Source: Halostella litorea
Lineage (GTDB): Archaea > Halobacteriota > Halobacteria > Halobacteriales > Natronoarchaeaceae
Assembly (NCBI RefSeq): GCF_004785955.1
Contig: NZ_ML214300.1
Location: forward strand, 671,223 to 735,222
DNA: 64,000 nucleotides
Direction: 5' to 3'
Positions 59,687-64,000 of this stretch are shown piece after piece. The notes under the pieces were generated by a model. The model saw only the letters and a list, made by a program, of their open reading frames with translations. It was not told the origin of the DNA and searched no databases. The first letter of the stretch is position 1. Every line of letters starts with the position of its first letter. The translations under genes were made by a program, and so were the position numbers.

Positions 59687-59708
59687 TGACGTGAGTGAAC
59701 GGGGTCGT

Positions 59709-60947
59709 ATGGGGATCGATTACTCGGAGCTGCACGACCCGAACGCGGAGTACACGATGCGGGAGCTGTCGTCGGAGACGATGGGCGTGACGCGCGAGCG
59801 CGGCGGCGGCCGCGACGTGGAGATCACGGACGTCCAGACGACGATGGTGGACGGGAACTTCCCGTGGACGCTCGTCCGGATCTACACCGACGCCGGCGTC
59901 GTCGGCGACGGCGAGGCGTACTGGGGCGCGGGCGTCCCCGAACTCATCGAGCGGATGAAGCCGTTCGTGATCGGCGAGAACCCGCTCGACATCGACCGGC
60001 TGTACGAGCACCTCGTCCAGAAGATGTCCGGCGAGGGCTCCGTCGAGGGCGTCACCGTCTCCGCCATCGCGGGGATCGAGGTGGCGCTGCACGACCTCGC
60101 GGGCAAGATCCTGGAGGTGCCGGCCTACCAGCTGCTCGGCGGCAAGTACCGCGACGAGGTGCGCGTCTACTGTGACTGCCACACCGAGGAGGAGGCCGAC
60201 CCCGACGCCTGCGCCGACGAGGCCGAGCGCGTCGTCGAGGACCTGGGCTTCGACGCGCTGAAGTTCGACCTCGACGTGCCGAGCGGCTTCGAGAAGGACC
60301 GCGCGAACCGCCACCTCCGCCCCGGCGAGATCCGCCACAAGGCCGAGATCGTCGAGAAGGTGACCGAGCGCGTGAAGGACCGCGCCGACGTCGCCTTCGA
60401 CTGCCACTGGACGTTCTCGGGCGGGAGCGCCAAGCGCCTCGCCGAGGCGATCGAGGACTACGACGTGTGGTGGCTGGAGGACCCCGTCCCGCCGGAGAAC
60501 CTCGAGGTGCAGGAGGAGGTCACGAAGTCCACGACGACGCCGATCACCGTCGGCGAGAACCGCTACCGCGTCACCGAGGAGCGCCGCCTGATCGAGAACC
60601 AGGCGGTCGACATCATCGCGCCCGACCTGCCGAAGGTCGGCGGCATGCGCGAGACCCGGAAGGTCGCCGACGTCGCCAACCAGTACTACGTGCCGGTCGC
60701 GATGCACAACGTCTCCTCGCCGGTCGCCACGATGGCCTCCGCCCACGTCGGCACGGCCGTCCCCAACTCGCTGGCCGTCGAGTACCACTCCTACGAACTG
60801 GGCTGGTGGTCGGACCTCGTCGAGGAGACGGTCATCGAGGACGGCTACATCGAGGTCCCCGAGGAGCCCGGCCTCGGCCTGACGCTCGACCTCGACGCCG
60901 TCTCCGAGCACATGGTCGAGGGCGAGACGCTGTTCGACGAAGCGTAG
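59709..60947 (+). CDS. gad: D-gluconate dehydratase (enolase superfamily)
   Basis: 412 aa mandelate racemase/enolase-fold enzyme. N-terminal cap VTRERGGGRDVEITDVQTTM; barrel with DALKFDLDVPSG (KxDxD-like), metal ligands in VAFDCHWTFSGGSA, WWLEDPVPPENL and ITVGENRYR, and catalytic His in VAMHNVSSPVA. It closely resembles the Haloferax gluconate dehydratase that makes 2-keto-3-deoxygluconate. Context with gdh, gfcR and a GntP permease agrees. The C-terminal LFDEA codons are repeated just after the stop. Confidence 0.94.
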   Translation: MGIDYSELHDPNAEYTMRELSSETMGVTRERGGGRDVEITDVQTTMVDGNFPWTLVRIYTDAGVVGDGEAYWGAGVPELIERMKPFVIGENPLDIDRLYEHLVQKMSGEGSVEGVTVSAIAGIEVALHDLAGKILEVPAYQLLGGKYRDEVRVYCDCHTEEEADPDACADEAERVVEDLGFDALKFDLDVPSGFEKDRANRHLRPGEIRHKAEIVEKVTERVKDRADVAFDCHWTFSGGSAKRLAEAIEDYDVWWLEDPVPPENLEVQEEVTKSTTTPITVGENRYRVTEERRLIENQAVDIIAPDLPKVGGMRETRKVADVANQYYVPVAMHNVSSPVATMASAHVGTAVPNSLAVEYHSYELGWWSDLVEETVIEDGYIEVPEEPGLGLTLDLDAVSEHMVEGETLFDEA

Positions 60948-61121: not shown

Positions 61122-61721
61122 TTACGCGTCCGTGGCGTTGACCACGTAGGCGTCCGACGAACCGGGGAGGTCGACGGAGATTCCCAAGACGGAGATGCCA
61201 GTCGAGTCGGTGGTCCGGAGCGTTACCGCCTCGCCATCGACGACCGTCCCGTTCGTGACCGTGAACGTCGCGACGCGATCGCCCGTGTCGTTCACTGCGG
61301 TCAGCTCCGTCGTCTCGGAGTCCGACGCCGTCAGGACGTTGTCCAGCGGCCGGGCGTCGGTCACCGTCCCGGCGTCAAGGTCGACGTCGGCGACGACCCG
61401 GGGCGCGGCGTCCTCGTCGGGCGCGACGTACACCTCCAGGTCGTCGCCGACGTCCTCGACCTGAAAGTGGACGGGACCGCTTTCGAACCAGTCTCTGACG
61501 GCGTCGTGCTGCCAGGCGGTTCGCCAGGCGCGCTCGACGTCGCGCTCGCTCAGGTCGCCGTCGGGGTCGACGACCTCGACGGTGTGGTTGGAGGGCTGTA
61601 CGACGTCCGCGGGCGACCCGTCAGGGGTCGCCGTCGGCGGACTCGTCGTGGCGGCGGCGACGCCGCTCGCGCCGAACGCGAGCAGCGCCGCGACCGCGAC
61701 CGTGAGTAGCTGTCGTTGCAT
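61122..61721 (-). CDS. Secreted protein of unknown function
   Basis: 199 aa. Signal peptide MQRQLLTVAVAALLAFGASG with no lipobox, followed by a Thr/Pro linker and a mature domain rich in Asn-x-Thr sites (VQPSNHTVEVVDPDG, VTNGTVVDGEAVTL). No enzyme motif. Its upstream region carries the 18-nt element also found before the secreted protein gene at 62604; the two proteins share a similar composition and a D-x-x-x-x-T-V-T-D segment. Confidence 0.75.
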   Translation of the reverse strand: MQRQLLTVAVAALLAFGASGVAAATTSPPTATPDGSPADVVQPSNHTVEVVDPDGDLSERDVERAWRTAWQHDAVRDWFESGPVHFQVEDVGDDLEVYVAPDEDAAPRVVADVDLDAGTVTDARPLDNVLTASDSETTELTAVNDTGDRVATFTVTNGTVVDGEAVTLRTTDSTGISVLGISVDLPGSSDAYVVNATDA

Positions 61722-61824
61722 GGTTGCCGTACGGCGGCGCGGGTCGACGGCGGCGGGCGTCCCGTCGGCGGGGACCGGTGCCGTCGCCCGGCGCGCCGCG
61801 GTCTACGGTTGTGCGAAAGAGTTG

Positions 61825-61872
61825 ATAGCCGTTTCTTGGAAACGCCCGGGAAACGGCTTCGAAAGCCGTTTC
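61825..61872 (-). promoter_or_regulatory. Candidate operator/promoter A with shared 18-nt element and palindrome
   Basis: On the minus strand it contains TTTCCAAGAAACGGCTAT (61825-61842), identical to site B, preceded by the inverted repeat GAAACGGC/GCCGTTTC (61850-61872). It overlaps the last codon of the regulator gene and lies about 100 nt before the secreted protein gene at 61721. Confidence 0.6.
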
Positions 61873-62458
61873 AGGGGCGTATTTCGCGCTCCTGCAGGTG
61901 GACCGTGTTGCCGATCCCGCTGCGCTTGCGCTCGACCAGCCCCCGGTGTTCGAGGTTGTCCAGCGTCCGGCTGACCGTCGCCTTCGAGAGGTCCGTTCCC
62001 TCGACGAGCGCACGCTGTGGGATCTCGCCGTCGGCGTCGAGCAGCATCGAGTAGATGGTCGCCTCGTTGTCGCCGAGGCGGTCGAGCGTCGCCTCCCGGC
62101 GCTCGCGGCGGTCCTCGGAGTCGTCCGCGGCGCGGTCGGCGTCGCCGCCCCCGTTCGCCGCCGGCGACGGGGCCGGCTCCGCCGGTCCGTTCGCCGTCGG
62201 AGGGTCCGCGGGGGCGCGGGCACGGCCGCCGAGGACCAGATACGTCCCGCTCGCGCCGCTGACGAGCGCGGCGACGGCGACGACCGCAACCTCGTCGTAG
62301 GTGAAGTACTGGCCGACCTGCGTCGTCTCCGCCCCGCTCTCGCCGACCGACACCACGACCGGCGAGGGGGTGATGAGCTGGACGGCGAGCACGAGCACGG
62401 CGGCGATGAAGACGACGGCCGCCGCGAGGTGGGAGGTCCGGAGGGCTCGGGCGTTCAT
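61871..62458 (-). CDS. Membrane-anchored winged-helix transcriptional regulator
   Basis: 195 aa. Two membrane helices near the N-terminus (AAAVVFIAAVLVLAVQL and AVVAVAALVSGASGTYLVLG) flank a short outside loop; then a Pro/Ala/Asp linker and a C-terminal winged helix (DNEATIYSMLLDADGEIPQR, TDLSKATVSRTLDNLEHRGL). It could sense an envelope signal and act on DNA while in the membrane. Both flanking secreted-protein genes carry the same promoter element, so they are the obvious targets. Confidence 0.85.
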   Translation of the reverse strand: MNARALRTSHLAAAVVFIAAVLVLAVQLITPSPVVVSVGESGAETTQVGQYFTYDEVAVVAVAALVSGASGTYLVLGGRARAPADPPTANGPAEPAPSPAANGGGDADRAADDSEDRRERREATLDRLGDNEATIYSMLLDADGEIPQRALVEGTDLSKATVSRTLDNLEHRGLVERKRSGIGNTVHLQEREIRP

Positions 62459-62518
62459 GGGCGAACGTATCCGCTGACCGGAACTTCAGTGTACTGGTCT
62501 ATACGGCACGTAGCGGCC

Positions 62519-62578
62519 GTGAAACGGCGCGAAACGTGTTTCCAACCGCTTCCAAACGCCTTTCCAAGAAACGGCTAT
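62519..62578 (+). promoter_or_regulatory. Candidate operator/promoter B with shared 18-nt element
   Basis: TTTCCAAGAAACGGCTAT at 62561-62578 is identical to site A. Upstream are further GAAACG/GTTTCC half-sites (62521-62556). The element ends 26 nt before ATG 62604, so it coincides with the expected TATA position of that gene. Confidence 0.6.
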
Positions 62579-62603
62579 GAGGGTTTGCAGCCAACCAGTG
62601 AAC

Positions 62604-63356
62604 ATGGCCAACGACGTCCGCGTCCGCCTCGCCGTCCTCGTCGGCCTCGCCGCCCTCGCCGTCGGGCTAGCAGGGGTCGGAACAGCGGTCGGCGTGACGG
62701 ACCCGATCGCCGACGCCGACGCGGGCGGGGAGTTCGTCGTGGCGGACGGGTCGGTCACGTTCGCCGGCAACGGGGAGAACGTGACCGTCGTCGAGAGCAC
62801 GGCGAACGTCAGCGAGATCCGGTTCGAGGAGACCGATTCCGGGCGCTTCGTGGTGAGCACGGAGACCGACCGGCCGCTGACGCCCGCCGAGCGCGATCGG
62901 GCCGTCGAGATAGCGCGGAGCAACGGGACGGTCCGGGGGAAACTCGCCGAACTGGACGGGTACGAACTCGCCGTCGAGCCGGTACAGCGGCTGGAGGCCG
63001 ACCAGGTGAGCAGTTACGACGTCACCCTCGAAGCCGACGGGAACGCCACCGCCGGTGAGACGGACGTGTTCGTCGCGAACGCCACGGCCGAGGACCGGGA
63101 CGGGACGGTCGTCGTCGAACGCGACCCGTCGTACGCCGAGGACCGCGCGGTCGTCAGGGTCCAGCAACCGGACGCCGCGGAGGGGGAGCGACTGCGGTAC
63201 AGCGTCGATGTCGACCTGGCGAACGACACCGTCACGGACGTCACCGACTGGACGGCGGTCGGCGAGGAGTCGACGGTCAGCTTTTCGGGAGGGAACACGA
63301 CGGTGGACGGGTCGGACCGGGTGCGATCGACGCGCGACTCCGCCCCCGTGCAGTAA
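62604..63356 (+). CDS. Secreted protein of unknown function, partner of the 61122-61721 gene
   Basis: 250 aa from ATG 62604. Signal peptide MANDVRVRLAVLVGLAALAV, then a mature domain rich in Asp/Glu/Val/Thr with Asn-x-Thr/Ser sites (GNGENVTVVESTANVSEI) and a DLANDTVTDVTDW segment. The frame extends to ATG 62577, but that codon lies within the promoter element, so 62604 is preferred. No known domain recognised; the pattern of short beta strands suggests a cell-surface or periplasm-like sensor protein. Confidence 0.75.
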   Translation: MANDVRVRLAVLVGLAALAVGLAGVGTAVGVTDPIADADAGGEFVVADGSVTFAGNGENVTVVESTANVSEIRFEETDSGRFVVSTETDRPLTPAERDRAVEIARSNGTVRGKLAELDGYELAVEPVQRLEADQVSSYDVTLEADGNATAGETDVFVANATAEDRDGTVVVERDPSYAEDRAVVRVQQPDAAEGERLRYSVDVDLANDTVTDVTDWTAVGEESTVSFSGGNTTVDGSDRVRSTRDSAPVQ

Positions 63357-63447: not shown

Positions 63448-64000
63448 TCAGGCCATCGGGAAGAGCGTCGAGAGGACGAGCGTCACGACGATCCCCGTGA
63501 CGGAGATGATCGTCGTGAGGACGGTCCAGGTCTTGAGCGTCTCGCCCTGCGTGAGGCCGCCGATCTCCTTGACCAGCCAGAAGCCGCTGTCGTTGTACCA
63601 CGAGCAGATGTTCCCGCCCGCGCCGATCGCCATCACCAGGAACGCCGGGTGGACGGACAGGTCGGGCACCTGCGGGGCCATGATGCCCGCTGCGGTGAGC
63701 ATCGCGGCGGTCGCGGAGCCCTGTGCGATCCGTACGATGGCGGCGATGAGCCACGCGCTGATGAGCAGCGGGATGCCGACGCCGGCGAGCGCCTCGGTGA
63801 TGTAGTCGCCGATCCCCGAGGCCGCAAGCAGCGCGCCGAACGCGCCGCCGGCCGCGGTGATCGCCGCGATGTTGCCGCCGCTTTTCAGCGCCTCGGTCAT
63901 CTCCTCGGTCCAGGCCTCGCGGTCGACGTCGCTGTATCGGTAGTACGTCCACGCGGCGACCATCGCCGCGACCGTCAGGGCGACGTTCTTGTCGCCGATG
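63448..64000 (-). CDS. GntP-family gluconate permease, N-terminus outside window
   Basis: The C-terminal 184 residues are present; the frame stays open to base 64000. RIAQGSATAAMLTAAGIMAP, FLVMAIGAGGNICSWYNDSG and FWLVKEIGGLTQGETLKTWT are signature stretches of gluconate/H+ symporters. Several membrane helices are visible. Near gluconate dehydratase and glucose dehydrogenase it probably imports gluconate or a related sugar acid. Confidence 0.9.
   Translation of the reverse strand, partial: IGDKNVALTVAAMVAAWTYYRYSDVDREAWTEEMTEALKSGGNIAAITAAGGAFGALLAASGIGDYITEALAGVGIPLLISAWLIAAIVRIAQGSATAAMLTAAGIMAPQVPDLSVHPAFLVMAIGAGGNICSWYNDSGFWLVKEIGGLTQGETLKTWTVLTTIISVTGIVVTLVLSTLFPMA

Follow-up and report, generated by a model that had tools for sequence, protein, structure and literature searches.

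The region described here lies in a 64,000-nucleotide (nt) stretch of the Halostella litorea genome, the whole of which we refer to as the window. A gene for a transmembrane regulator, P0001, is flanked by genes for two predicted secreted proteins, P0002 and P0003, each with a promoter that contains GAAAC/GTTTC half-sites. The features are as follows.

61122..61721, minus strand: P0002, secreted protein of 199 amino acids (aa), N-terminal signal peptide and one predicted beta-alpha-beta4 domain (~44-127)
61722..61803, minus strand: P0002 5' leader, ~80 nt, start placed from promoter geometry, one long hairpin
61809..61880, minus strand: P0002 operator and promoter, with half-site array, TATA, and TTTC element (model match, E=4.6e-7)
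61825..61842, minus strand: site A, exact 18-mer TTTCCAAGAAACGGCTAT (sequence search of window and genome)
61871..62458, minus strand: P0001, transmembrane regulator of 195 aa, with two helices, a short conserved loop predicted to be external, and a DUF7343 winged helix predicted to be cytoplasmic
62518..62594, plus strand: P0003 operator and promoter, with phased GAAAC/GTTTC array, TATA, and TTTC-like element (model match, E=2.9e-11)
62561..62578, plus strand: site B, exact 18-mer TTTCCAAGAAACGGCTAT, comprising the last array half-site and the BRE/TATA region
62604..63356, plus strand: P0003, N-anchored or secreted protein of 250 aa, N-terminal beta part and beta-alpha-beta4 domain

The P0002 operator and promoter overlap the final codons of the regulator gene. 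For P0003, the mechanical open reading frame begins at 62577, inside site B, and the ATG at 62604 agrees with both the promoter and the homologues.

The initial annotation of this DNA had drawn attention to an exact 18-nt sequence before both flanking genes. Our searches recovered TTTCCAAGAAACGGCTAT at both positions and nowhere else: at up to three mismatches there were two matches in the window, and the same two in the whole genome (3,745,232 bases, ~3.75 Mb). The reversed TTTCCAAGAAACGGCTAT, used as a control, had no match in that genome. Because no match was expected by chance and two exact copies were found, the pair is not a chance occurrence. The extra GAAACG/GTTTCC half-sites that had been claimed could also be placed on both sides (62521 to 62568 and 61831 to 61868). 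On the P0003 side, GAAAC lies at 62521, 62531, and 62568 and GTTTC at 62538, with degenerate half-sites at 62549 (CTTCC) and 62560 (CTTTCC); on the P0002 side, the half-sites are at 61868, 61850, 61839, and 61831. The 3' end of site B is 26 nt from the P0003 ATG, so that the site overlies the place where BRE/TATA is expected in a leaderless promoter, in agreement with the overlap that had been proposed.

In P0001, residues 11-29 and 57-75 form two hydrophobic helices and residues 130-188 a winged helix, the architecture that had been read from the sequence initially. The winged helix matches Pfam DUF7343 (PF24034; E=8.5e-13), and its score of 48.4 bits exceeds the Pfam gathering score of 27.6 bits, which places it in the family. 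Two transmembrane helices are present in 56 of 59 regulator homologues, and the predicted topology would put the winged helix in the cytoplasm and the short conserved loop outside. By profile, the nearest solved relatives are an Lrs14-like protein (PDB 6cmv) and the MarR protein HosA (8aga), both soluble and without membrane helices, so that the profile match is confined to the winged helix. P0001 has the structure that defines transmembrane transcription regulators (TTRs), namely a DNA-binding domain joined in a single protein to one or more transmembrane regions; TTRs are one-component regulators of bacteria and archaea that act from the membrane (PMC10269533).

Relatives of P0001 at E<=1e-8 occur in 79 of 293 Halobacteriales genomes, and strong relatives (E below 1e-20) in 65. 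In a collection of genome contigs, relatives were recovered with an alignment as the query, while P0001 as a single sequence gave nothing. Haloferax volcanii had no match. Outside Halobacteria, a Nitrososphaerales metagenome-assembled contig (L158) encodes a regulator relative that is 33% identical.

Both P0002 and P0003 begin with a signal-peptide-like or anchor segment, as expected of the secreted products that had been proposed, and neither has a Pfam or NCBIfam family match. Overall confidence in the predicted structures is middling, but each has a well-predicted core consisting of a strand, a helix, and four strands (46-125 in P0002; 82-215 in P0003, with a disordered insert). A local profile match between the two families extends over the helix (probability 93%), and the two proteins probably have one domain in common. 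Fold and sequence searches of both proteins against the PDB returned no significant match, and weak fold matches (e.g., amine oxidases) were set aside for that reason. Membership in the PepSY or cystatin-like groups found no support in the database searches either: only the order of strand, helix, and four strands is alike, and neither family had a consistent Pfam match.

In most divergent loci, a P0002 homologue occupies the equivalent position, and P0003 relatives are present in 59 of the 293 Halobacteriales genomes, mostly adjoining P0001 relatives. At two loci, L122 (G144:C2) and L102 (G169:C6), a P0003-like gene has no relative of the regulator close by, and the DNA upstream of the L122 gene has no recognizable array. 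What looked at these same two loci like P0003 fused to other domains proved to be long open frames. At loci L138, L139, and L140 (476-1996 and equivalents), the P0002-like proteins are ~506 aa long, compared with 199 aa in the window, and perhaps contain several copies of the same domain.

The three genes form a module that recurs in Halobacteriales. When the 8.5-kb surroundings of the regulator were scanned at ~58 loci, exactly three protein families recurred (the two-helix DUF7343 regulator, the P0002-like family, and the P0003-like family), in 45 to 49 loci, and every remaining neighbor family recurred in at most five. The wider neighborhoods vary between genomes, and one copy is on a plasmid. 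In the window, the module is flanked by a mandelate racemase/enolase-type enzyme (59691-60947) and a GntP gluconate permease (63448-63999), neither of which recurs beside it in other genomes.

Gene order within the module also varies. In the Natrinema-type order, a long P0002-like gene is followed by one operator and then by the P0003-like gene and the regulator in one operon; in L139, for example, the operator is at ~2090-2200, between genes starting at 1995 (minus strand) and 2234 (plus strand). In L074, an insertion puts P0002 1.3 kb from the regulator, and the operator stays with P0002. In four loci of the Natrinema type (L100, L103, L104, and L105), the gene after the regulator appears by eye to be PspA-like (MGILSRASYVIRSKLNSVLNRAEDPTETLDYSYEQMRDQL...), and in L108 the corresponding gene resembles, again by eye, the signal peptide peptidase SppA. 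PspA is an envelope stress protein. These downstream genes are not conserved in other loci.

Comparison of the promoters in these loci revealed what the 18-mer is part of. Both promoter types consist of the half-site array, then TATA, then a TTTCA..CAA element. On the P0003 side, relatives have TGAAAC-n5-TGAAACGCGTTTCnAACnnGTTTCnAACGCGTTTCACC, followed by TTGATG, which is TATA-like, and by CTTTCACCCAA just ahead of the ATG; across families, this 80-nt promoter is constant in length, with very few gaps. The P0002 side has a looser array that ends in GTTTCCAAtcAAnnACTATnAGGTCTTTCA..CAACG. In 50 P0003-side promoters, we counted 220 occurrences of GAAAC/GTTTC, compared with ~14 in shuffled sequence. 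For half-sites in the same direction, the spacing was 11 bp in 81 cases and 22 bp in 28, while GAAAC is separated from GTTTC by 7, 18, 29, or 40 bp, that is, 7+11k. As 11 bp is one helical turn, the half-sites all lie on one face of the DNA. There are usually four or five of them, 11 bp apart, and in most relatives the array ends just upstream of BRE/TATA. At a related locus (L063), TTTCCAATGAACGGTTAT and TTTCCAATAAACGGCTTT, which are close but not identical, stand in place of TTTCCAAGAAACGGCTAT. Judged from these alignments, exact identity of TTTCCAAGAAACGGCTAT in the two promoters is lineage-specific, and what is old and conserved is the array of phased half-sites. The expectation that the motif would precede orthologous gene pairs was thus borne out for the array and not for the literal 18-mer.

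We then asked where this operator occurs, by modeling the P0003 promoter from sequence alone in 26 relatives, with the window left out. In the window's own genome, where 150 of 879 candidates were scored, two places were significant, the P0003 (E=2.9e-11) and P0002 (E=4.6e-7) promoters, and the next best had an E value of 0.12; because the number of candidates scored was limited, weak extra targets may escape. Across the 293 genomes, every one of the 85 operator places (E<=1e-3) had a strong regulator match no more than 1.8 kb away. Operator and regulator were found together in 58 genomes, operator alone in 0, regulator alone in 7, and neither in 228 (Fisher p about 6e-54, a value not to be taken literally, because the genomes are not independent and some of these loci also served to train the model). 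Among the seven genomes with the regulator alone at this threshold, two have an operator at E values of 0.0016 and 0.009, one has a regulator cut by a contig end, and the others are divergent. Two regulator copies, each with its own nearby operator match, were seen in G136 (two places), G072, and G234. By sequence, the array accompanies the regulator and both secreted-protein families in both gene orders. The proposal of a local regulon whose regulator recognizes GAAACG is strongly supported by this comparison: co-occurrence is 58 to 0, the operator is present at the locus only, and it keeps its position between the two targets when the gene order changes.

A further conserved feature is the P0002 leader. 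Haloarchaeal transcripts are mostly leaderless, and a structured leader of ~80 nt is unusual for haloarchaea. Leaders from 38 loci (the window and 37 others) had a mean folding z of -2.9, with 28 below -2, and nearly all form one long hairpin; the shape is conserved while the sequence diverges. Control segments inside the regulator gene (z of -0.29), inside the P0003 gene (-0.03), and deeper in P0002 (-0.63) gave weaker values. Within the P0002 gene, the initial 90 nt had a z of -1.76, so part of the leader signal may be regional. Seven alignable leaders gave 24 predicted consensus pairs, 6 of them with both sides changed, and an alignment of 13 leaders, whose sequences are too divergent, yielded no common structure.

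Taken together, these observations suggest that the module is a self-contained transmembrane one-component unit, with a regulator that would bind cooperatively to the array and control both secreted-protein genes. From the sequence comparisons, we give this reading a probability of roughly 0.72. The membrane-embedded regulator would expose its winged helix to the cytoplasm and its short conserved loop to the outside, and regulator dimers would occupy the array that ends against BRE/TATA of both promoters. With several adjacent dimers on the array, a cooperative, switch-like response would be expected. The array-bound regulator may then recruit TFB/TBP and so activate P0002 and P0003, which would be the whole detectable output of the circuit. 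P0002 and P0003 in turn probably exert feedback on the external loop or present the signal to it, and the module may sense the envelope.

The direction of control is less certain than the control itself. A repressor that covers the array together with BRE/TATA, and is released by a membrane signal, would account for the way in which the window 18-mer runs into the TATA position and for the conserved TTTCA..CAA element between TATA and the start site; MarR-like winged helices, moreover, are often repressors. In most relatives, however, the array ends upstream of BRE/TATA, where the elements of the activator GvpE sit (PMC4390858), and for this reason we consider activation somewhat the likelier and repression a credible but less probable reading. 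More doubtful, and offered tentatively, is the idea of a surface-sensing circuit of new design, in which a tethered winged helix along an 11-bp-phased operator would set the levels of two related secreted proteins that bind its external loop, with the leader as a second layer of control.

The array could instead be bound by another factor, such as a global regulator or a specific TFB, with P0001 merely a linked gene. That GvpE, an unrelated activator, has a TGAAACGG-type element lends this some plausibility, but a factor with a general role would be expected to have operators at other places as well, and there was none of that kind among the 85 places and none in a genome without the regulator; we find this explanation improbable. 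Even less probable is that the shared 18-mer is only the product of a recent duplication or gene conversion at the locus, with no role in regulation. Its exact identity is lineage-specific, and the proximal sequences of the two promoters differ in other species, which makes recent homogenization of the 18-mer quite plausible. The underlying array, however, is conserved and fixed in phase at both promoters in many families, and because it is conserved across species, duplication fails as a full explanation.

Archaeal TTRs are counted by the thousand, and few have a known target sequence. Here the operator is predicted to the base, the two target genes are defined, the spacing follows a clear rule, and hosts such as Haloferax mucosum can be cultured, which makes the action of a membrane-held transcription factor directly testable. 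Two unnamed families of secreted proteins also gain a context, and a conserved structured leader is added in a group with mostly leaderless transcripts.

The module is likely previously undescribed. A literature search on membrane-bound haloarchaeal regulators, with most subscription papers outside its reach, found no description of it, and DUF7343 was not mentioned in the literature searched. Two haloarchaeal candidates were set aside: CsmR of Haloferax volcanii is another regulator with another motif (TATCA-N4-TGATA), and sptA, a halolysin gene, has cis elements of another form (GAAAT-N7-ATTTC). The closest likeness to the operator is found in gas vesicle promoters, where the GvpE element, TGAAACGG, resembles the module half-site. 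Like the array, the GvpE-responsive elements (UAS) abut the BRE of divergent haloarchaeal promoters and have repeated half-elements, arranged as two 8-nt boxes 4 nt apart (PMC4390858). The array does not have this two-box arrangement beside the BRE, and no GvpE was found encoded nearby, where only the three module families recur. GvpE is a soluble, leucine-zipper-like activator, and its boxes repeat at a 12-bp step. In the module, the step is 11 bp, at least four half-sites are present, and the protein is a winged-helix regulator of the membrane.

In its proposed design, P0001 resembles ToxR/ToxS and CadC of enterobacteria and vibrios, which also join a membrane-bound winged helix to an extracytoplasmic partner or signal; this is a likeness of design, with no sequence relation expected. 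ToxR and CadC have an N-terminal winged helix, a single helix, and a periplasmic domain, whereas P0001 has a C-terminal winged helix, two helices, and a short external loop in place of an external C-terminal domain. Among archaeal TTRs, ArnR and ArnR1 of Sulfolobus likewise have the DNA-binding part at the N terminus (PMC13286277), while in P0001 the winged helix follows the two helices. What further distinguishes P0001 from these TTR examples is its company: it travels with two dedicated secreted proteins and with a predicted phased, multi-site operator at both targets.
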